The position numbers and the translations under genes were made by a program. The notes under the pieces are model-generated. The model had not been told where the DNA came from. It saw only the letters and a program-made list of their open reading frames with translations, and did no database searches. From Burkholderiales bacterium (lineage in GTDB: Bacteria; Pseudomonadota; Gammaproteobacteria; Burkholderiales; Ga0077523): a stretch of DNA of 64,000 nt. The stretch lies in contig JAIEQG010000025.1 in the NCBI GenBank assembly GCA_019747905.1, positions 1 through 64,000 on the forward strand. Direction: 5' to 3'. The number at the start of each line of letters is the position of its first letter. The first letter of the stretch is position 1. Of this stretch, positions 27,681 to 39,156 are shown in pieces.

Positions 27681-28901
27681 TCAGGCTCCCGTGCCCTTCG
27701 CGAACTCCTCGAAGGGAATGGTCTTGCCCGCCTTGATGATGGCGACCGGCACGATCTTGCCGTCCTTCAGCGTGAAGATCGTCATCTCGGCATCCTTGCG
27801 GTCGCCCTTTTCGTCGAACTCGATGTGACCGCTGGCCCCGTCGAAGCTGATCGCCTTCAGCGCCGGGAGGTACTTGGCGGGATCGACCGAATCCGCCTTC
27901 TGCATCGCGGTGATGATGAGGTTGGTGGCGTCGTAGGTGAACGGCGCGTAGATGATGGGGTCGGACCCGAACTTGGCCTTGAAGGCGTCGATGAACGACT
28001 TGCTCGAGGCCTGGGCCGGAATGCCGGCCTGCGAGCACACCAGCCCTTCGGCGGCCGCACCCGCGAGCTCCTGCATCTTGTCCGTGCAGGCGCCATCACC
28101 GAAGGCGAACACGCCCTTCAATCCCAGCTCGCGGCCCTGCTTGACCAGCGGCCCCCCGCCCGAATCCATGCCGCCGTAGAAGACCGCGTCGGGCTTCTTG
28201 CCTTTCAGCGTGGTGAGGATCGCCTTCCAGTCGGTGGTCTTGTCAGTGCCCTTCTCGCGCGCCAGCACGGTGACGCCCGCTGCCTTGAGCGACTTCTCGA
28301 CCTCGTTCGCGAGGCCTTCGCCGTACGACGTGGCATCGTCCACCACGGCCACGACCTTCGGCTTGAACTGCGCCACGAGGTAGCTCGCGATGGCCGGCCC
28401 TTGCTGGTCGTCGCGGCCGACGGTGCGGAAAGTCACCGCGAAGCCCTGCTCGGTCAGCTTGGGATTGGTCGCGGAGCCAGAGATCATCGGGATGCCGGCC
28501 GTGTTGTACACGGCGGAAGCCGGGATCGTGACGCCGGAGTTGAGGTGTCCGACGACGCCGGCCACTTTCGCATCGGCAAACTTCTGCGCGATGATCGGGC
28601 CCTTGTCCGGTTTGCCTTCGTCGTCCTCCGACAGCATCTCGAACTGGACCTTGGCGCCGCCGATGGTGAGCCCCTTGGCGTTGGCCTCGTCGACGGCGAG
28701 GCGGACGCCGGCCTCGTTGTCCTTGCCGAGGTGCGCGATGCCGCCGGTGAGCGGAGCGGCATGCCCGATCTTGATCACCGTGGCGCCGCCACCCGCTGCG
28801 GGTTTGGCCGCTTCTTCCTGTTTGCCGCAGGCAGCAACCAGCAGCACGGCGGACAATACGGCGACGGACCGGAGGCGGAACGGGACTCGGGTGAGCGGCA
28901 T
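27681..28901 (-). CDS. livK: Branched-chain amino acid ABC transporter substrate-binding lipoprotein (system 1)
   Basis: Periplasmic ligand-binding protein of the type I (Leu/Ile/Val-binding) fold, 406 residues from ATG 28901. A strong ribosome site GAGGAAAAA precedes it. The signal peptide ends with the lipobox LVAAC near residue 24, so the protein is probably a lipoprotein, unlike the soluble E. coli LivK. Ligand-fold segments include IGHAAPLTGGIAHLGKD, GVVGHLNSGVTIPAS and YAPFTYDATNLI. First gene of livKHMGF. Substrate specificity cannot be read from the sequence. Confidence 0.93.
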   Translation of the reverse strand: MPLTRVPFRLRSVAVLSAVLLVAACGKQEEAAKPAAGGGATVIKIGHAAPLTGGIAHLGKDNEAGVRLAVDEANAKGLTIGGAKVQFEMLSEDDEGKPDKGPIIAQKFADAKVAGVVGHLNSGVTIPASAVYNTAGIPMISGSATNPKLTEQGFAVTFRTVGRDDQQGPAIASYLVAQFKPKVVAVVDDATSYGEGLANEVEKSLKAAGVTVLAREKGTDKTTDWKAILTTLKGKKPDAVFYGGMDSGGGPLVKQGRELGLKGVFAFGDGACTDKMQELAGAAAEGLVCSQAGIPAQASSKSFIDAFKAKFGSDPIIYAPFTYDATNLIITAMQKADSVDPAKYLPALKAISFDGASGHIEFDEKGDRKDAEMTIFTLKDGKIVPVAIIKAGKTIPFEEFAKGTGA

Positions 28902-29008
28902 GGTTTTTCCTCGGGGAAGCCGACGGGGATACGGATCGCGGGGATTATTCCCTGTCGGCCCCAGGGCCGTCAATTTGACGCGACCGGCGTCGCCTCACGC
29001 TGGTGGCG

Positions 29009-29040
29009 AAAAAAAACCGGCCGCTGGGGCCGGTTTTCTC
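29009..29040 (-). terminator. Intrinsic terminator downstream of the small cytochrome c gene
   Basis: AAAACCGGCC pairs with GGCCGGTTTT around a five-base loop, and on the minus strand the stem runs into a tract of eight T. It lies 25 bases past the stop codon of the cytochrome gene and before livK. It therefore separates these two minus-strand units. On the plus strand only four T follow, so the direction is clear. Confidence 0.85.
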
Positions 29041-29064
29041 ACCGTCGTGCGACGGTACGGCGGA

Positions 29065-29385
29065 TCACTTCAACGACAGGATCCACTCCACCATGACCTT
29101 GACATCCTCGTCCTTCAGGTTCGGATGCGGAGTCATGGGCACGGCGCCCCAGGCGCCGGAGCCGCCCGCCTTAACCTTCTTCACCAATGCGTCGGTGGCG
29201 CTCGCGTCGTACTTCTTCGCGATCTCCTTGTAGGACGGTCCGACGAGCTTGGTCGCCTCGGCATGACAGGCCATGCAATCGCTGCCCTTCATCAGGGCGG
29301 CGGCCTTGGCGGCATCGGCGGCGTGCGCCGCACCGGTGGCGGCAATACCTACGGCCAGCGCCGCGGTGGAAAGGATCAGTTTCAT
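29065..29385 (-). CDS. Periplasmic class I cytochrome c (c-551/c8 type)
   Basis: A 106-residue precursor with a Sec signal peptide (1-22, ending AHA) and a single haem site CMACH at 37-41. The sixth ligand is probably Met84 in AVPMTPHP. The segment LVGPSYKEIAKKY after the haem site is typical of c-551/c8 carriers, which shuttle electrons between bc1 and oxidases or nitrite reductase. A clear AAGGAG ribosome site precedes the ATG by five bases. Monocistronic, with its own promoter and terminator. Confidence 0.93.
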   Translation of the reverse strand: MKLILSTAALAVGIAATGAAHAADAAKAAALMKGSDCMACHAEATKLVGPSYKEIAKKYDASATDALVKKVKAGGSGAWGAVPMTPHPNLKDEDVKVMVEWILSLK

Positions 29386-29422
29386 GCGTTCTCCTTGGGG
29401 TGTCGGACGAAGACTGCGGCGA

Positions 29423-29451
29423 ATTCTAGGTGCTTTCCAGCGCCTTGGAAA
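29423..29451 (-). promoter_or_regulatory. Sigma-70-like promoter of the small cytochrome c gene
   Basis: On the minus strand TTTCCA (29451-29446) and TAGAAT (29428-29423) are spaced by 17 bases. The expected start is near 29416, leaving a 30-base leader before the ATG at 29385. Both hexamers are imperfect matches (4 of 6 and 5 of 6), but the spacing is optimal. Confidence 0.55.
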
Positions 29452-29471
29452 CGGCAGGGCGGAAATTCACC

Positions 29472-31499
<2,028 letters not shown>

Positions 31500-31546
31500 G
31501 CGCGTGCTCTGGGGGCAGGTGCGAGGCAGGTTACCATGCACCCACG

Positions 31547-32596
31547 ATGAATCCGACCGCACGCCGGCTCGCCCTGATCCTGGCACTCGCGACCGGCGTG
31601 GCCTTCGCGCAGGATGCCGCGCGCCTGGGTCTGCCCGCCACGGCGCCGACCGCGACGGATGAACAAACGCTCGCGCGGATCGAGCTGGGCCGCCGCCTGT
31701 TCTTCGAGCCGCAACTGGCCGAAGACGGCGTCATGGCCTGCGCCACCTGCCACATTCCCGAGCACGCCTTCACGGTGAATGCCGGCACCGTCGCCTTCGG
31801 GCGCGGCGGACAGGCCCTGCGGCGCAATTCGCCGACGCTGCTCAACATCGACCTCGCCACGTCCTTCTTCCACGACGGCCGCGCCGGCACTCTCGAGGAG
31901 CAGGTCTGGTTCCCGCTGCTGAGCCAGTCCGAGATGTGGAACCCCTCCGCAGAGAGCGTGGTCGGTCGCCTGCGCTACCGGCGCGAGTACGCCGACATGT
32001 TTCGCCGCGCGTTCGGCGACGAAGGCGTCTCGCGCAAGACCCTCGCCGCGGCGATCGCCGCGTATGAACGAACGCTCGTGGCAGGGGGCTCCCGTTTCGA
32101 CCGCTGGTTCTACGGCAAGGAAGAGGCCGCGCTAACGACCGAGGAGCAGGCAGGGTTCACGGTGTTCAACTGGAGCGGCTGCAACGCCTGCCACGTCGTC
32201 GATGCCGCCAGCGCCACCTTCAGCGACAACCGGTTCCGCAACACCGGCATCGAGTGGGCGCGCGCCCGGGGCGAGCTGGGATCGAAGAAGACCGAGTCCG
32301 ATCTGGGCCGTTTCGAGATCACCGGCCGGCCGGAGGACCGCCACGCGTTTCGTACCCCGAGCCTCCGCAACGTCGCCCTGACAGCTCCGTACATGCACGA
32401 TGGCTCGTTACCGACCCTGCGCGACGTGGTCGAATGGTACGACCGCGGCGGCAGCGCCGACCCGGGCAAGGACCCGCTGGTGCGCCCGCTGCGGCTGTCG
32501 GAAGCGCAAAAGCGGCAGCTCGAAGCGTTCCTGAAGAGCCTGACCAGCGAGACCGCGGCCGTACTGGCACGGGAAGCGCGCCCCCGTCCGCAGTAA
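31547..32596 (+). CDS. Di-haem cytochrome c peroxidase (MauG/CcpA family)
   Basis: A 349-residue periplasmic precursor with a signal peptide (1-21, ending AFAQ). Two haem sites are present: CATCH at 65-69 and CNACH at 212-216, the layout of bacterial di-haem peroxidases. The family reduces H2O2 with electrons from small cytochromes, or in MauG-like members oxidises protein residues. Candidate distal ligand regions are RNSPTLLN and [20 protein letters not shown] donor such as the cytochromes c in this window is plausible. Peroxidase or MauG-like activity cannot be separated by eye. Confidence 0.9.
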
Positions 32597-32734
32597 CGAG
32601 AACCGCTCTGGCCGTTGGACGGGCGTCCCACGCCTGCGGCGGCACAACGCTTGCGTCGGCCATCAGGAACCTCGCGCCACTGCGGGCGGTCACCTATTGC
32701 GTGCTGCGCCGACGGGCGGGCAATCCGATCGACC

Positions 32735-35005
32735 ATGGACACCGGCCTCGACTTCCCCCTCAACCCCGCTGCCTACCAGTGGACGGGGCGGTTCATGCGC
32801 TTTCTGCGGCGGGTGCTCAAGGTCAACATCCGCCTGCACCACGACCAGGGCCAGGTGGAAGCGGGCGACATCTTCGTCTTCAACCATTTCGCGCGCTTCG
32901 AGACCTTCATCCCGCAGTACCTGTTCTGGGAACAGTGCGGCGCGCAATGCCGGTCCATCGCCGACCATGATCTGTTCAAGGGCAACGAGCGCTTCGCTTC
33001 CTACCTGCAGGGTGTGGGTGCGGTACCGAACAATCATCCGCACCTGTTGAGCCTGCTCGCCGCGGAAGTCCTGCGCGGGCGCAAGCTCATCGTGTTTCCG
33101 GAAGGCGGCATGGTGAAGGACCGCCAGGTGCTGGATGGCAGCGGCCAGTACAGCGTGTACTCGCGCAGTGCGCAGCAGCGCCGCAAGCAGCACAGCGGCG
33201 CTGCCGTGATCGCGCTGGCCCTGGAGGTCTTCAAGCAGGCGGTACTGAGCGCGGCCGAGCGCCGGGATCACCGGCGCCTGGAAGCGTGGTGCGATCTGAT
33301 CGGCCTCGACAGCCCTGCATTGCTGATCGGCCGGGCGCGCAGGCCGACGCTGATCGTCCCGGCCAACATCACGTTCTATCCGATGCGCGTACGAGGCAAT
33401 CCGCTACAGGCCGGCGTGGAGTTCTTCAACCGCGGCATCAGCCCGCGCATGCGCGAGGAATTGCTGATCGAAGGCAACATCCTGCTGCGCGACACGGACA
33501 TGGACATCCGCCTGGGCAATCCGCTGCGAGCAGCGAACTTCTGGAGCGATCGCGAACGCGAACTGGTGGCCGCGAGCAGCGAGCGCCTGGGCCACCTGAA
33601 GGATGCGTTCACGACCCACTCCGAACGCGCCGACAAGCGCCTGTTCGCGAACGCCACGCGCCTGCAGGCGGAGCAGATCCGCGATGCATACATGCACGCG
33701 ATGTATCAGCTCGTGTCGGTGCACCTGAGCCATCTCGCTGCGTTGATCATCTACGAGCTGCTGGAGGCCGGGCGCAGCGAGATCCCCGCGACGGACTTCC
33801 ACCGCATCCTGTACGTCGCCGTGAAGACGTTGCAGGCCGATACCACCATGCACCTGCACCGCAGCCTGCGCAACCCGGAGAACTACGAGGACCTGCCGTT
33901 CGGCCGTTGCGCAGGCCTCGAGCAGTTCCTCACCACCACCACGCAGCTCGCCCTGATCGAGCGCACCGACAGCTACTACCGTTTCCTGCCGAAGCTGCTC
34001 AAGGATCATGGCTTCGACCAGGTGCGGCTGGAGAATCCGGTGGAGGTCTACGCCAACGAAGTGGCGCCCATCCTGCCGGCGCTGAACGCGGTGCGGACCG
34101 CAATCCGCGAGGTTTCGGATCTGTCCGAGCAGCGCCTGGCCGAACTGCGCTTCGACGATGCCCGCCGCGCCTACGCCTGGGATCGCAAGCGCTTTCGCAA
34201 ACCGAAGCACGAAGCCGTCAACAAGCTGCAGACCCAGAGCGAGGACGCCGAACCGTTCCTGTTCCGTCCCGATCAGCCGCGCAGAGTCGGTGTGCTGCTG
34301 GTGCACGGCTTCCTCGCCTCGCCGGCCGAGGTCCGCGGATTCGGTGAAGCGCTGAGCCTGCAGGGCTACACCACCCTGGGAGTACGCCTCAAGGGGCACG
34401 GCACTTCGCCCTGGGACCTGCGCTCGCGCACGTGGCACGAGTGGCTCGCATCGGTGCGCCGGGGCTTCGAGACCCTGGCGCCGCTGGTGGATCGGGTCTG
34501 TCTGGTGGGTTTCTCCACCGGCGGGTCACTGTGCCTGCAGCTCGCCACCGAGCAGCCCGCCAAGCTCGCCGGCATCGCGACACTGTGCACGCCGCTGCGC
34601 TTCAAGAATCGCAACATGGTGTTCGTGCCGTTCGTGCAAGGGGCCAATCGCCTGGTGAGCGTCGTCCGGGAGGAGGGTGTACTCGCGTTCCGCCCGAATC
34701 CGTCCGAGCATCCGCACATCAACTACGTGCACATGCCGATCCGCGCACTGAACGAGCTCGCGCGCCTGACCGACAACGTCAGGAAGCGGCTCACCGAAGT
34801 GCGCAGCCCGGTCCTGATCATCCAGGGCGACACCGACCCGATCGTGGAACCCGACAGCGCGCTGCTGTTGCACCGATCCCTGGGCACCGACGACAAGCGG
34901 ATCGTGATGGTCCAGTCGCGGCGCCACGGGATTCTCTACAACAACATCGGCGAGACCTGGAAGGAAATCTTCGGCTTCCTCGCCCGCTTCGACCAGCCGG
35001 TCTGA
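32735..35005 (+). CDS. Two-domain protein: PlsC-like acyltransferase fused to an alpha/beta hydrolase
   Basis: A 756-residue protein that appears to join two enzymes. The N-terminal region (about 40-350) looks like a glycerophosphate acyltransferase: FNHFARFE around His51 in place of HX4D (the acid is Glu56), and FPEGGMVKDR at 121-130. A helical middle (about 350-490) resembles nothing I know. The C-terminal 250 residues are a carboxylesterase/monoglyceride lipase-like hydrolase with oxyanion HGF at 524-526, nucleophile Ser594 in GFSTGG, and probable Asp701 and His731. No signal peptide. Membrane lipid remodelling is a reasonable guess, not shown. Convergent and abutting with ubiD. Confidence 0.8.
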   Translation: MDTGLDFPLNPAAYQWTGRFMRFLRRVLKVNIRLHHDQGQVEAGDIFVFNHFARFETFIPQYLFWEQCGAQCRSIADHDLFKGNERFASYLQGVGAVPNNHPHLLSLLAAEVLRGRKLIVFPEGGMVKDRQVLDGSGQYSVYSRSAQQRRKQHSGAAVIALALEVFKQAVLSAAERRDHRRLEAWCDLIGLDSPALLIGRARRPTLIVPANITFYPMRVRGNPLQAGVEFFNRGISPRMREELLIEGNILLRDTDMDIRLGNPLRAANFWSDRERELVAASSERLGHLKDAFTTHSERADKRLFANATRLQAEQIRDAYMHAMYQLVSVHLSHLAALIIYELLEAGRSEIPATDFHRILYVAVKTLQADTTMHLHRSLRNPENYEDLPFGRCAGLEQFLTTTTQLALIERTDSYYRFLPKLLKDHGFDQVRLENPVEVYANEVAPILPALNAVRTAIREVSDLSEQRLAELRFDDARRAYAWDRKRFRKPKHEAVNKLQTQSEDAEPFLFRPDQPRRVGVLLVHGFLASPAEVRGFGEALSLQGYTTLGVRLKGHGTSPWDLRSRTWHEWLASVRRGFETLAPLVDRVCLVGFSTGGSLCLQLATEQPAKLAGIATLCTPLRFKNRNMVFVPFVQGANRLVSVVREEGVLAFRPNPSEHPHINYVHMPIRALNELARLTDNVRKRLTEVRSPVLIIQGDTDPIVEPDSALLLHRSLGTDDKRIVMVQSRRHGILYNNIGETWKEIFGFLARFDQPV

Positions 35006-36469
35006 TTACAGCCCGAGTTCGCCCCAGAGTTCGTCGACCCGGCGCTTCACCGCCGGGTCCATCGCGATGGGTTTGCCCCACTCCCGCTGGGTCTCTCCGG
35101 GCCACTTGTTGGTCGCATCGATACCCATCTTCGATCCGAGCCCCGACACGGGGCTCGCGAAGTCGAGGTAGTCGATGGGCGTGTTGTCGACGAGCAGGGT
35201 GTCGCGCATGGGATCGACGCGGGTGGTGAGTGCCCAGATCACTTCCTTCCAGTCGCGCACGTTCACGTCGTCGTCGGTGACGAGGATGATCTTGGTGTAC
35301 ATGAACTGCCGCAGGAACGACCAGACGCCGAACATCACGCGCTTGGCGTGACCGGGATACTGCTTGCGCATCGATACCACCGCGAGGCGGTAGGAGCAGC
35401 CCTCCGGCGGCAGGTAGAAATCCACGATCTCGGGAAACTGTTTGGTCAGCAGCGGCACGAAGACTTCGTTCAGCGCGACGCCGAGGACAGCCGGTTCGTC
35501 CGGCGGCTTGCCGGTGTAGGTGGAGTGATAGATCGGATTGCGGCGCAGGGTGATGCGCTCGACGGTGAACACCGGAAAGCGTTCCTGCTCGTTGTAGTAC
35601 CCGGTGTGGTCGCCGAACGGACCTTCGAGCGCCGTTTCACCGGGGTGGATCACGCCTTCGAGCACGATCTCGGCACTCGCCGGCACTTGCAGGTCGTTGC
35701 CCACGCACTTGACGAGTTCGGTCTTGGCGCCGCGCAGCAGTCCGGCGAACTGGTATTCGGACAACGTGTCCGGCACCGGCGTCACGGCCCCGAGGATCGT
35801 TGCGGGATCGGCCCCGAGCGCTACGGCGACCGGGAACGGTGTACCCGGGTGCGCCGCGGCGTGATCGCGAAAATCCAGCGCGCCGCCGCGATGGGCGAGC
35901 CACCGCATGATCAGCTTGTTCGGACCGATCACCTGCTGGCGGTAGATGCCGAGGTTCTGGCGTGCCTTGCTGGGACCCCGCGTCACCGTCAGACCCCAGG
36001 TGATGAGCGGGCCGACATCGCCGGGCCAGCACGTCTGCACCGGCAGGCGCGCGAGATTCACGTCGGCACCTTCCCACACGATCTCCTGGCACGGTGCGCT
36101 CGACAGGACCTTGGGCGCCATGTGGAGGACCTGCTTCAACACCGGGAGCTTGTCCCACATGTCCTTCAAGCCCTTCGGCGGTTCGGGCTCCTTGAGATAC
36201 GCGAGCAGCTTGCCCACCTCGCGCAGCGCTTCGACCGAGTCTTCGCCCATGCCCAGTGCCACGCGCCTGGGTGTGCCGAACAGGTTCGCGAGCACCGGGA
36301 TGTCGAAACCGGTGGGCTTCTCGAACAACAGCGCAGGACCCTGGGCCCGCAACACGCGATCGCAGATCTCGGTCATCTCGAGCCGCGGCGAGACAGCTGC
36401 CGCGATGCGTTTCAACTCGCCTTGGCGCTCGAGCTGTTCGATGAAGTCCCGCAGGTCGTGATATCGCAT
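35006..36469 (-). CDS. ubiD: 4-hydroxy-3-polyprenylbenzoate decarboxylase UbiD
   Basis: Prenylated-FMN-dependent decarboxylase of the ubiquinone pathway, acting on the product of UbiA. The 487-residue length is right. Characteristic segments are [14 protein letters not shown] at the N-terminus, the [15 protein letters not shown] region that binds cofactor and metal, and [13 protein letters not shown] with the catalytic glutamate. The start at ATG 36469 follows a spacer repeat whose open frame could mislead gene callers into a 36-residue extension. The flavin prenyltransferase ubiX it needs is not in the window. Confidence 0.97.
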
Positions 36470-36472
36470 GAT

Positions 36473-36639
36473 GTCAGTACGATGTTCGCCATCGCGTCGG
36501 GCCAGCGGCCGGCGCAGCCGGGGCGCACGGACCTTCTCGCAACAAGCCTTGAGGTGGGTGGCGCCGGGCTGCCCCAAGGCACTGATGCACCTCCTTGGGG
36601 AGCAGCGAACATCGAGCGCGCGGCGGTCGTTTCATTCTT
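36473..36639 (-). repeat. Spacer repeat R2, copy 2 (directly before ubiD)
   Basis: On the minus strand this stretch begins AGAATGAAACG and ends CATCGTACTGAC, three bases before the ubiD ATG. It matches 1566-1734 over its full length in the same orientation relative to the downstream gene. It makes up almost the entire spacer between the DUF922 gene and ubiD. The frame through it is open and in phase with ubiD, as with copy 1 and its gene. Confidence 0.8.
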
Positions 36640-36646
36640 GTTCCGA

Positions 36647-37300
36647 TCAGGGAAAGCGTGCGCCTTGCGTGAGGCCGTGCTGGGTGCGGCGGTCGTACTC
36701 GCGATCCAGCTCCACGTAGCGCGCAACCACCTCGTTGGCGACCGCCTTGGCCTCGGCGTCGATGCCGGCGCAATCCCGGCGCGGCGCAAGTCCGCGCACC
36801 CGCGCTTCCACTTCGGTGCGGGCCGCGACGCCATTGTCCCGGTGACCGTTCTCGTGGTCACGCAACGCTCGCAGGTAGCGTTGCCAGCCGGCACGCAATT
36901 CGGCCGGTGCGCGGGCTTCGTCGCGCCAACGCGGCAGGACCATCGACACCGCCAGCTTCGTCGTGACCGTGGTCACGCGACATTGGCCGTCGAGAACCCG
37001 CGTCTGGTAGCGATAACCCAGGTTCCAGTCGGTGCGCCCGGCAAAGACCCGGCCGTCATCGCCCTTGGGGCCCGCCACCGTGATCGACTGCCACAGGGCG
37101 CGCGCGTCGGTGCCGGTCACGTCGTACCAGCGCAGCTCCACGTCGCCCGCACCCGGGGCGGCTTGCACACGGGTCGCCGTCACGGCCCTCGGGGGCAAGT
37201 CGCCGTAGTGCACCTTGCCTTTCTCGTCGACCCATTTGTATACCCCTGCGACGGCTGCGCCACCCAGCGCGAGAGCAACCACCGCACTGCCGGCCCGCAT
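36647..37300 (-). CDS. Secreted DUF4124-DUF922 protein, putative zinc protease
   Basis: A 217-residue exported protein combining two families. A short N-terminal signal (1-19) runs straight into the DUF4124 motif VYKWVDEKGKVHYGDLPP. The rest (about 52-217) is DUF922, annotated in databases as a predicted secreted zinc-dependent protease, with HENGH at 149-153 as an HExxH metal site and the family ending YDRRTQHGLTQGARFP. Substrate unknown. The ATG at 37300 overlaps the SDR stop codon (TGATG), so the two are translationally coupled. Confidence 0.82.
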   Translation of the reverse strand: MRAGSAVVALALGGAAVAGVYKWVDEKGKVHYGDLPPRAVTATRVQAAPGAGDVELRWYDVTGTDARALWQSITVAGPKGDDGRVFAGRTDWNLGYRYQTRVLDGQCRVTTVTTKLAVSMVLPRWRDEARAPAELRAGWQRYLRALRDHENGHRDNGVAARTEVEARVRGLAPRRDCAGIDAEAKAVANEVVARYVELDREYDRRTQHGLTQGARFP

Positions 37301-38088
37301 CACAGCACGGCGCTGAGCCCGCCGTCCATCGGAATCACCGCTCCGGTCACGTAGGCCGCGCGACTCGAGGCGAGGAACAGCGCCACCTGTGCGATATCCG
37401 CCGGATCGGCGTAGCGGCCGAGCGGAACGCGCTTCTGTCCCGCCGCGAGCAGTTCCTCGCGCGCCTTGCCGGACTGTGCGGTCTCCAATGCCAGTGCAGC
37501 ATCGAGACGCTCCCCAAGCACGGCCCCGGGATTGATGGCGTTGATGCGCACGCCCTTCGGTCCGTACACGCTCGCGAGCCCCACGGTGGCGAGCATCAGC
37601 GCCGAATTGGCGGCCCCGCCCGGCAGATGAATGGACGAGGCCACCTTGCCGCCCATGCCGATCACGTTGACCACCGCACCGCGACCCCGCGCGGCCATGC
37701 CCGGCAGCAGCGCGTCCATCATGTGAATGTAGGTGAAGTACTTGGCGTCCATGGCCGCGTGCCAGGCGGCGGCGTCGAGGTCGTCGGGCGCATAGCGTTT
37801 CGCCGCCCCCGCGGAGTTCACCAGGATGTCGATCTCGCCCATGCGACGTTCGAGTTCACGCGCCGCGCGCTGCGCCTCGTCGGCGCGCGTGAGATCGGCC
37901 TGCACGATCACCGGCGGATAGTCGCCGGCCGAGTGCAGTTGCGCGGCGGCGAGCTTCAGGTGCTCCTCGCTGCGGGAAACCAGCGCCACCTGTGCCCCTT
38001 CCGCGAGAAACGCCGCCGCGCATGCGAACCCGATGCCGCGGCTGCCGCCGGTCACCACCGCCACCTTGCCCGTCAACTCCAGATTCAT
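37300..38088 (-). CDS. Short-chain dehydrogenase-like protein lacking the catalytic Tyr and Lys
   Basis: A 262-residue Rossmann protein of the classical SDR size. The cofactor motif TGGSRGIG (13-20) and NSAG (91-94) are intact. Where SDRs have Tyr-xxx-Lys, this protein has GGAANSAL, with Gly157 and Asn161 at the expected positions (Met and Ala nearby do not substitute). Start and end of the fold are normal, including INPG and the C-terminal VTGAVIPMDGG. It may be a non-reductase binding protein or use an atypical mechanism. It lies between ubiA and the DUF922 gene, overlapping the latter. Confidence 0.85.
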   Translation of the reverse strand: MNLELTGKVAVVTGGSRGIGFACAAAFLAEGAQVALVSRSEEHLKLAAAQLHSAGDYPPVIVQADLTRADEAQRAARELERRMGEIDILVNSAGAAKRYAPDDLDAAAWHAAMDAKYFTYIHMMDALLPGMAARGRGAVVNVIGMGGKVASSIHLPGGAANSALMLATVGLASVYGPKGVRINAINPGAVLGERLDAALALETAQSGKAREELLAAGQKRVPLGRYADPADIAQVALFLASSRAAYVTGAVIPMDGGLSAVL

Positions 38089-38097
38089 CTCGTTCCT

Positions 38098-38988
38098 TCA
38101 GAAAGACATGTCCGCCGCGATCCCGGCGAACACCGCCGCGCCTACCCAGTTGTTGTGGAGGAAAGCCCGGAAGCACCCCTCGCGCGTGCGACCCCGGATC
38201 ATACGGAATTGCCATGCGCACAGCACCGCCGCCACCGCGAGCCCGGCGAAGTACGGTGCACCCAGGCCCGCGGCCCATCCCAGCCAGGCCATGATTCCCA
38301 CGAAACCTGCGTGGAACAGCAACACTGCCGCCACGTCGAAGCGCCCGAACAGCAATGCCGCGGTGCGTATGCCGAGCTTCACGTCGTCGTCGCGGTCCAC
38401 CATGGCGTACTCGGTGTCGTAGGCGAGCGTCCACAGCACGTTGGCGAGCAGCATCCACCACCCGAGCGCCGGCACGCTGCCCTGCAGCGCCGCGAACGCC
38501 ATGGGAATGCCGAAGCCGAAGGCGATGCCGAGGTACGCCTGGGGCAGCGCGAAGAACCGCTTGGTGAACGGGTAACTCGCGGCCAGGAACAGTGCGACGA
38601 AGGACAACTGGATCACGAGACGATCGAGCGGCAGGATCAACAGGAACGCGATCAACGACAAAACGCCCGCCACCAGCAACGCTTCGGTCCCGGAGATTCG
38701 CCGTGCCGCCAGGGGCCGGTCCTGGGTGCGCTTCACGTGCGGATCGAAGTCGCGGTCGGCCCAGTCGTTGATCGCGCAGCCGGCCGAGCGCATCAGCGCC
38801 GTGCCCGCCACGAAGATGCCGACCACCACCCAGTCAGGCCGGCCGCCGCCCGCGATCCACAGCGCCCACAGGGTCGGCCAGAGCAGCAACAGGATGCCGA
38901 TGGGGCGATCGAGCCGCACCAAGCGCGCGTAGAGACCGAGTCGCTCGACGATGCCGTTGCGTGGTGGAGTGCTCACATCGGATTGCAT
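38098..38988 (-). CDS. ubiA: 4-hydroxybenzoate octaprenyltransferase UbiA
   Basis: Integral membrane prenyltransferase attaching the polyprenyl chain to 4-hydroxybenzoate, first committed step of ubiquinone synthesis. The 296 residues have about eight membrane segments. The two aspartate-rich motifs are NDWADRDFD (about 84-92) and [13 protein letters not shown] (about 189-201). ATG 38988 (MQSDVS) follows a repeat; an upstream extension through the repeat is unlikely. UbiA and UbiD, consecutive enzymes in the pathway, lie within 4 kb and on the same strand. Confidence 0.97.
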
Positions 38989-39156
38989 CGACGGGTCAGT
39001 GGCGCCGGGCCGCCCCAAGCCACTGACGCGCCCCCTCAGGGGGCAGCGACCGCAGCGAGCGTGGGGGCGCGTTCATCTCAGCCCTCGCCGGGCCGCCCCA
39101 AGAGGGCTGGCCCCCTGGGGGGGAAGGGCCGAAGGACCATCGGGGGGGGCTTCACC
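38989..39156 (-). repeat. Joined spacer repeats R1 and R2 (recG-ubiA spacer)
   Basis: The complete recG-ubiA spacer is repeat sequence. From the recG stop codon on the minus strand it reads first as R1 (CCCCCCCCGATGG, CTTCGGCCC, CAGCCCTC). An R2-like part follows (ACGCTCGCTGCGGTCGCTGC, then TTGGGGCGGCCCGGCGCCA), ending CACTGACCCGTCG next to the ubiA ATG. It shows that R1 and R2 share the TTGGGGCGGCCCGGCGC core. It also shows R1 placed after a stop and R2 before a start within one spacer. Confidence 0.75.

Follow-up and report, generated by a model that had tools for sequence, protein, structure and literature searches.

An acyltransferase-hydrolase fusion family with a probable role in fatty acid recycling between membrane lipids and energy metabolism

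The locus examined here raises the question of what one polypeptide would do with a domain for acyl transfer and another for acyl removal. The gene lies in a 64,000-nucleotide stretch of DNA from a Burkholderiales bacterium (the window; positions are counted from its first letter). A sequence-only reading had placed in a single 756-residue frame a PlsC-like histidine (His51), an FPEGG motif at residues 121-125 and a Ser594/Asp701/His731 hydrolase triad; each is found at exactly that position, and the frame contains zero stops. The same reading suggested that the protein could be either a lipid-remodelling or acyl-swapping enzyme, or a hydrolase joined to an inactive acyltransferase. The features of the gene are:

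32735..35005, plus strand: acyltransferase-hydrolase fusion gene; ATG start, 756 residues (open frame and full-length orthologues)
32735..33634, plus strand: acyltransferase core, residues 1-300
32882..32902, plus strand: acyltransferase motif I, N50-H51-F-A-R54-F-E56 (H-x4-E)
33095..33109, plus strand: acyltransferase motif III, FPEGG, residues 121-125
33356..33382, plus strand: acyltransferase motif IV, VPANITFYP, residues 208-216 (P209, I212 and P216 invariant in 84 members)
33635..34120, plus strand: middle region, residues 301-462, predicted GPAT-type C-terminal region with a winged-helix-like part (AlphaFold model against GPAT1; profile alignment)
34121..34243, plus strand: helical linker, residues 463-503 (helices 465-486 and 490-496 in the model)
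34244..35002, plus strand: serine hydrolase, residues 504-756, of the monoacylglycerol-lipase or Est30-like carboxylesterase type
34514..34516, plus strand: catalytic Ser594 (motif GFSTG; 84 of 84)
34835..34837, plus strand: catalytic Asp701 (Asp in 83 of 84, Glu in one)
34925..34927, plus strand: catalytic His731 (84 of 84)

An in-frame TTG lies at 32615, upstream of the ATG start. Read from their translations, the neighbours in the window are DUF255/YyaL-type and cytochrome c peroxidase-like proteins upstream and a UbiD-type decarboxylase downstream, with no fatty acid genes among them. This neighbourhood is mostly common to the orthologues of 97% and 92% identity, so the fusion appears to be a settled chromosomal gene in the group. 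An Rfam search of positions 28000-39000 gave no match; near the gene no sigma-70-like site was found, and the one terminator-like site is no better than chance.

Integrity and distribution of the fusion

A frame or assembly error that merged two genes was considered as the origin of this architecture and rejected. The same fusion recurs in many separately assembled genomes and contigs and in phage copies, and orthologues spanning 27-97% identity share it, so we treat such an error as practically negligible. Within the genus, four other genomes encode the protein in full-length open frames (68-97% identity). Outside it, in other classes or orders, the fusion is found at 44% identity in three genomes of one other family of the phylum and at 28% in one. 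When 398 genomes of the phylum were searched with a profile of the acyltransferase half, five matches were obtained at 1e-100, the window genome included, all in frames of 743-896 residues. One more match, a weak one, falls on a standard PlsC that has H-x4-D; apart from it, neither half was found standing alone among these genomes.

A scan of genome contigs yielded 438 relatives, from which the loci analysed further are the best 80, that is, the most query-like and not a random sample. Of these, 79 read through, and the match in L078 has one stop. All read-through loci among these best 80 of 438 carry N-H-F-[AS]-R-x-E, a motif that was itself contained in one of the two search patterns; members recovered by the second pattern, which have other letters at the variable places, still have the Glu. 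A search of plasmids for relatives returned zero matches at 1e-30. Judged from these sequences, the fusion family is widespread, and no characterised member was found. Several record titles are those of metagenome bins and may be misnamed. Two MAG contigs, L071 and L103, are labelled Klebsiella pneumoniae; their fusion genes fall among unclassified gammaproteobacterial ones, and the bins are probably misnamed.

Fold, motifs and likely activity of the two halves

In the hydrolase half, Pfam Hydrolase_4 matches residues 517-735 (E 1.1e-20, 74.5 bits, above the cut-off of 27), and this score, together with the Ser-Asp-His triad, places the domain with the monoacylglycerol-lipase-like enzymes. The closest solved structures are a thermostable monoacylglycerol lipase (5xks, E 5.4e-27), the FphH hydrolase and Est30 carboxylesterases. 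The whole domain aligns with bacterial monoacylglycerol lipase and Est30 proteins (5xks, 3rli, 1tqh), full triad included; unlike the fusion, the matched chains have only about 250-280 residues and no acyltransferase.

For the acyltransferase, PF01553 matches residues 42-134 of the window protein at E 0.0049 and 17.1 bits, below the 23-bit cut-off, yet a scan of 35 relatives gave a match in 30 of them, the best at 4.8e-7, and the profile clears the cut-off in the diverged relative L138 (42.1 bits). The AlphaFold model of the full protein has a mean pLDDT of 84.8 and a pTM of 0.84 (80.8 and 0.83 for residues 1-470 modelled separately), and the 1-470 model matches human GPAT1 (8e4y) in Foldseek at E 1.7e-7. 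Residues 1..448 align with residues 171..581 of the GPAT1 chain (Z 17.3 over 311 residues), with weaker matches to PlsC (Z 12.5), squash GPAT (10.8), PatA (10.6) and LpxM (8.6).

This alignment bears directly on the middle of the protein, which had been described as about 140 residues of unrecognised helix. In GPAT/PlsB-type enzymes the acyltransferase fold runs past its core into a C-terminal region, and the fusion shows the same order, the GPAT1-like fold continuing to residue 448. On the strength of the GPAT1 match we reject a new domain here and assign the middle region to the acyltransferase; the similarity (Z about 6) of residues 329-452 to proteins of the ORC and CRP/FNR types is read as reflecting a common winged-helix arrangement.

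Sequence comparison is consistent with this assignment. The window genome encodes, on another contig, a 475-residue acyltransferase without a hydrolase (L126:1477-2901, contig C159) that is positive for GPAT_C and has H-x4-D; similar proteins occur in two other genomes of the class. Over residues 16 to 446, the fusion-family profile aligns with this protein with motifs I, III and IV in register: E56 stands opposite Asp, PEGG falls on PEGG, motif IV aligns with a P-V-G-I-N-Y stretch, and YANEVA falls on YYANAIA. The score of 37.7 exceeds the maximum of 29.7 in 40 column shuffles, with an hhalign probability of only 28.5% and a GPAT_C-side profile of three sequences. PlsB proper gives a weaker match (31.0 over 197 columns), and a search of PDB sequences with the acyltransferase-half profile returned nothing useful. 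The GPAT_C profile itself (PF19277) has no match in the window protein and one among 35 relatives (E 0.073); GPAT/PlsB-type proteins also differ from the fusion in having Asp in motif I and no hydrolase. We conclude, mainly from the modelled fold, that the middle region is likely to be the acyltransferase's own C-terminal region.

The remaining question about this half is whether it works. The sequence-only reading had described its motif I as changed, and a Glu does occupy the place of the Asp of the H-x4-D motif found in the PlsC-type superfamily. It is no peculiarity of this protein: Glu56 is present in 84 of 84 aligned members, which makes H-x4-E the family's own motif. In the same alignment H51, R54, P122, E123, G124, S594 and H731 are likewise invariant, so that the P-E-G of motif III is retained throughout. 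A catalytically dead domain that only binds lipid or acyl-CoA would be in keeping with the Glu, the weak Pfam score of the window protein, the low-confidence loops that follow PEG in the model and the FPQG that replaces FPEG in diverged L138. Against it stand the invariant residues and the rates of substitution. Measured against the 97% orthologue, dN/dS rises from 0.020 in residues 1-300 through 0.066 in 301-470 to 0.093 in the hydrolase; relative to the 92% orthologue, the values are 0.048, 0.102 and 0.075. No part of the protein is more constrained than the acyltransferase core (0.02, as opposed to 0.09 in the hydrolase), which speaks against a dead domain, and these values indicate that both halves are under purifying selection. 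Moreover, the catalytic dyad of E. coli LpxL is His132 and Glu137, with H132A lowering activity 1000-fold and E137A 3000-fold (PMC6286764). With a His/Glu dyad catalytic in this protein of the same superfamily, the Glu cannot be taken to mean that the half is dead. LpxL and LpxM, in both of which H-x4-E is active, share this motif with the fusion, and LpxM its fold; they differ in belonging to another subfamily, in acting on lipid A and in lacking a hydrolase. An inactive acyltransferase, the alternative offered by the earlier reading, is accordingly very improbable, and both halves look like working enzymes.

Fatty acid genes and the proposed acyl recycling

Gene context was compared across the best 80 of the 438 loci together with the window, with ORFs clustered and neighbouring genes called by a simple codon-position score. 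Three kinds of neighbour recur: FadD-type acyl-CoA ligases (23 loci), FadB-type 3-hydroxyacyl-CoA dehydrogenase/enoyl-CoA hydratases (21) and FadA-type thiolases (20). At least one of them lies near the fusion in 35 of the best 80 loci; more than half of these loci, some of them on short contigs, have no nearby fad gene. All FadD-, FadB- and FadA-type ORFs that could be compared are on the strand of the fusion, the ligase lying upstream of it in Sedimenticola and downstream in alphaproteobacteria and methanotrophs. NCBIfam names the neighbours long-chain acyl-CoA ligases, FadB-type enzymes and acetyl-CoA acyltransferases, with most scores falling short of the equivalog cut-offs. Three genomes have between 6 and 24 AMP-binding matches each, a density at which chance alone would put about 0.03-0.07 of them into 14 kb. 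G201, the most divergent member (28% identity), follows thiolase, FadB/J-type and acyl-CoA dehydrogenase genes, and the L138 fusion (L138:1956-3800) is flanked by acyl-CoA dehydrogenase and thiolase.

In nine relatives the linkage goes further, and acyltransferase, hydrolase and FadD-type ligase form one frame of 1313-1398 residues (L083:6959-11155, and in L063, L070, L076, L084, L091, L096, L101 and L109). The four of these nine that were scanned all have AMP-binding (about 1e-89 or better) and AMP-binding_C. On a quick tree built without bootstrap, no fewer than 10 changes are needed to account for the label 'fad-linked' and no fewer than four for 'triple fusion'. The window genome has no close homologue of the linked ligase at E 1e-100, so any ligase step in this organism would have to draw on other AMP-binding genes, for which it has 24 matches.

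The occurrence of the fusion in many bacteria, often beside and sometimes fused to enzymes that activate and degrade fatty acids, and also in some phages, points to a probable role in which fatty acids are recycled from membrane lipids to energy metabolism and back. In such a scheme the hydrolase would release the acyl chain of a mono-acyl or lyso lipid as free fatty acid, which a ligase would convert to acyl-CoA, whether this ligase is part of one polypeptide with the fusion, encoded in its operon or, for the window genome, one of the AMP-binding enzymes encoded elsewhere. The GPAT-like domain would then place the acyl group on glycerol phosphate or a lyso lipid, with His51 as the base and Glu56 as its partner, while surplus acyl-CoA would pass to beta-oxidation. 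Overall, this would amount to a Lands-type deacylation-reacylation cycle in one protein. We put the chances at about even that the fusion is specifically such a bifunctional acyl-recycling enzyme, serving the release, activation and re-attachment of acyl chains. The linkage and fusion to ligase and beta-oxidation genes fit the lipid-remodelling or acyl-swapping part of the earlier proposal.

The main rivals to acyl recycling are neutral-ester turnover and pure lipid breakdown. In the first, the acyltransferase would make a storage or alcohol ester that the hydrolase mobilises for beta-oxidation; such esters are made by the phytyl ester synthases of plants and the multifunctional acyltransferases of cyanobacteria. 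The monoacylglycerol-lipase-like hydrolase and the linkage to beta-oxidation genes suit this proposal. The acyltransferase fold, closest to GPAT1 among the structures compared, speaks against it, and storage-lipid genes were not noted among the loci. Plant PES proteins begin with the hydrolase and have a DGAT2-like acyltransferase, whereas the fusion has its acyltransferase first and GPAT1-like. Plant and algal PES proteins, of which PES1 and PES2 belong to the esterase/lipase/thioesterase family, nonetheless resemble the fusion, and lend the neutral-ester reading support, in pairing a hydrolase with an acyltransferase domain in one chain (PMC12048435, PMC12526585). On balance we regard neutral-ester turnover as rather unlikely.

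A parallel to the triple fusions, by description, is E. coli Aas, a lyso-lipid repair protein whose single chain combines an acyltransferase with an acyl-activating enzyme (PMC4666226). The window protein lacks the acyl-activating domain, which is the third domain present only in the nine longer relatives, and in E. coli, unlike in the fusion, the hydrolase step belongs to a separate protein, PldB. Together with FadD, PldB and the bifunctional Aas provide E. coli with a comparable set of reactions (PMC4666226). More generally, bacterial lipid turnover is usually drawn with a separate phospholipase or lysophospholipase, ligase and acyltransferase; in the fusion a single chain would combine two or three of them, Glu is invariant at a position held by Asp in most of the superfamily, and the family extends to T4-like phages. 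The component domains are already known. A literature search for such fusions, covering few subscription papers, found no description of the architecture, the operon or the phage gene, and these provisionally appear to be undescribed.

Phage copies and lipid breakdown

Nine viral contigs contain relatives of the fusion, and seven of them encode it in full (763-764 residues). These seven T4-like contigs reach 115 kb, with about 31% GC in those measured. Around the fusion in L139, PHROG families identify primase, ribonucleotide reductase subunits, thymidylate synthase, dUTPase and an exonuclease, and a T4-type major capsid protein is present in two of the four fusion-bearing phage contigs searched. 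The phage copies form one clade adjoining the gammaproteobacterial L106; in GenBank phage records only the hydrolase part finds matches. All seven contigs also carry isocitrate lyase, identified by PF00463 in L139 (6.4e-112) and by a conserved KKCGH stretch in the others. The paired loci are L139:10013-12295 (fusion) and L139:4749-6026 (isocitrate lyase), and the same two genes occur in L140-L145. Isocitrate lyase has already been described in marine viruses (PMC4053976, PMC5332604).

These copies bear on the second rival, in which the hydrolase works in lipid breakdown and feeds ligase and beta-oxidation, the GPAT-like domain being a side or reverse activity or a holder of acyl-CoA. The operon and fusion partners are degradative, and the isocitrate lyase of the phages would use acetyl-CoA from beta-oxidation; the linkage to beta-oxidation fits pure degradation as well as recycling. 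A subordinate role for the GPAT-like domain sits less well with an acyltransferase core that is more conserved than the hydrolase and has invariant catalytic residues, and we consider pure breakdown unlikely. A bolder form of the recycling proposal, which we offer tentatively as possible rather than probable, is that one polypeptide releases fatty acids, activates them in the longer relatives and re-attaches them, so that they are channelled from membrane lipid to beta-oxidation and back, and that T4-like phages use the two-enzyme form with isocitrate lyase to convert the membrane lipid of an infected host into usable carbon. The fusion family opens to experiment both the possible channelling of deacylation and reacylation and the possible reworking of host lipids by phages.

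The diverged L138 fusion is also shorter, has NHFIRAE in motif I in addition to its FPQG, and lies on a 26 kb IMG/VR contig that may be bacterial and not viral. The L139 contig additionally encodes a GST and a DNA methyltransferase.
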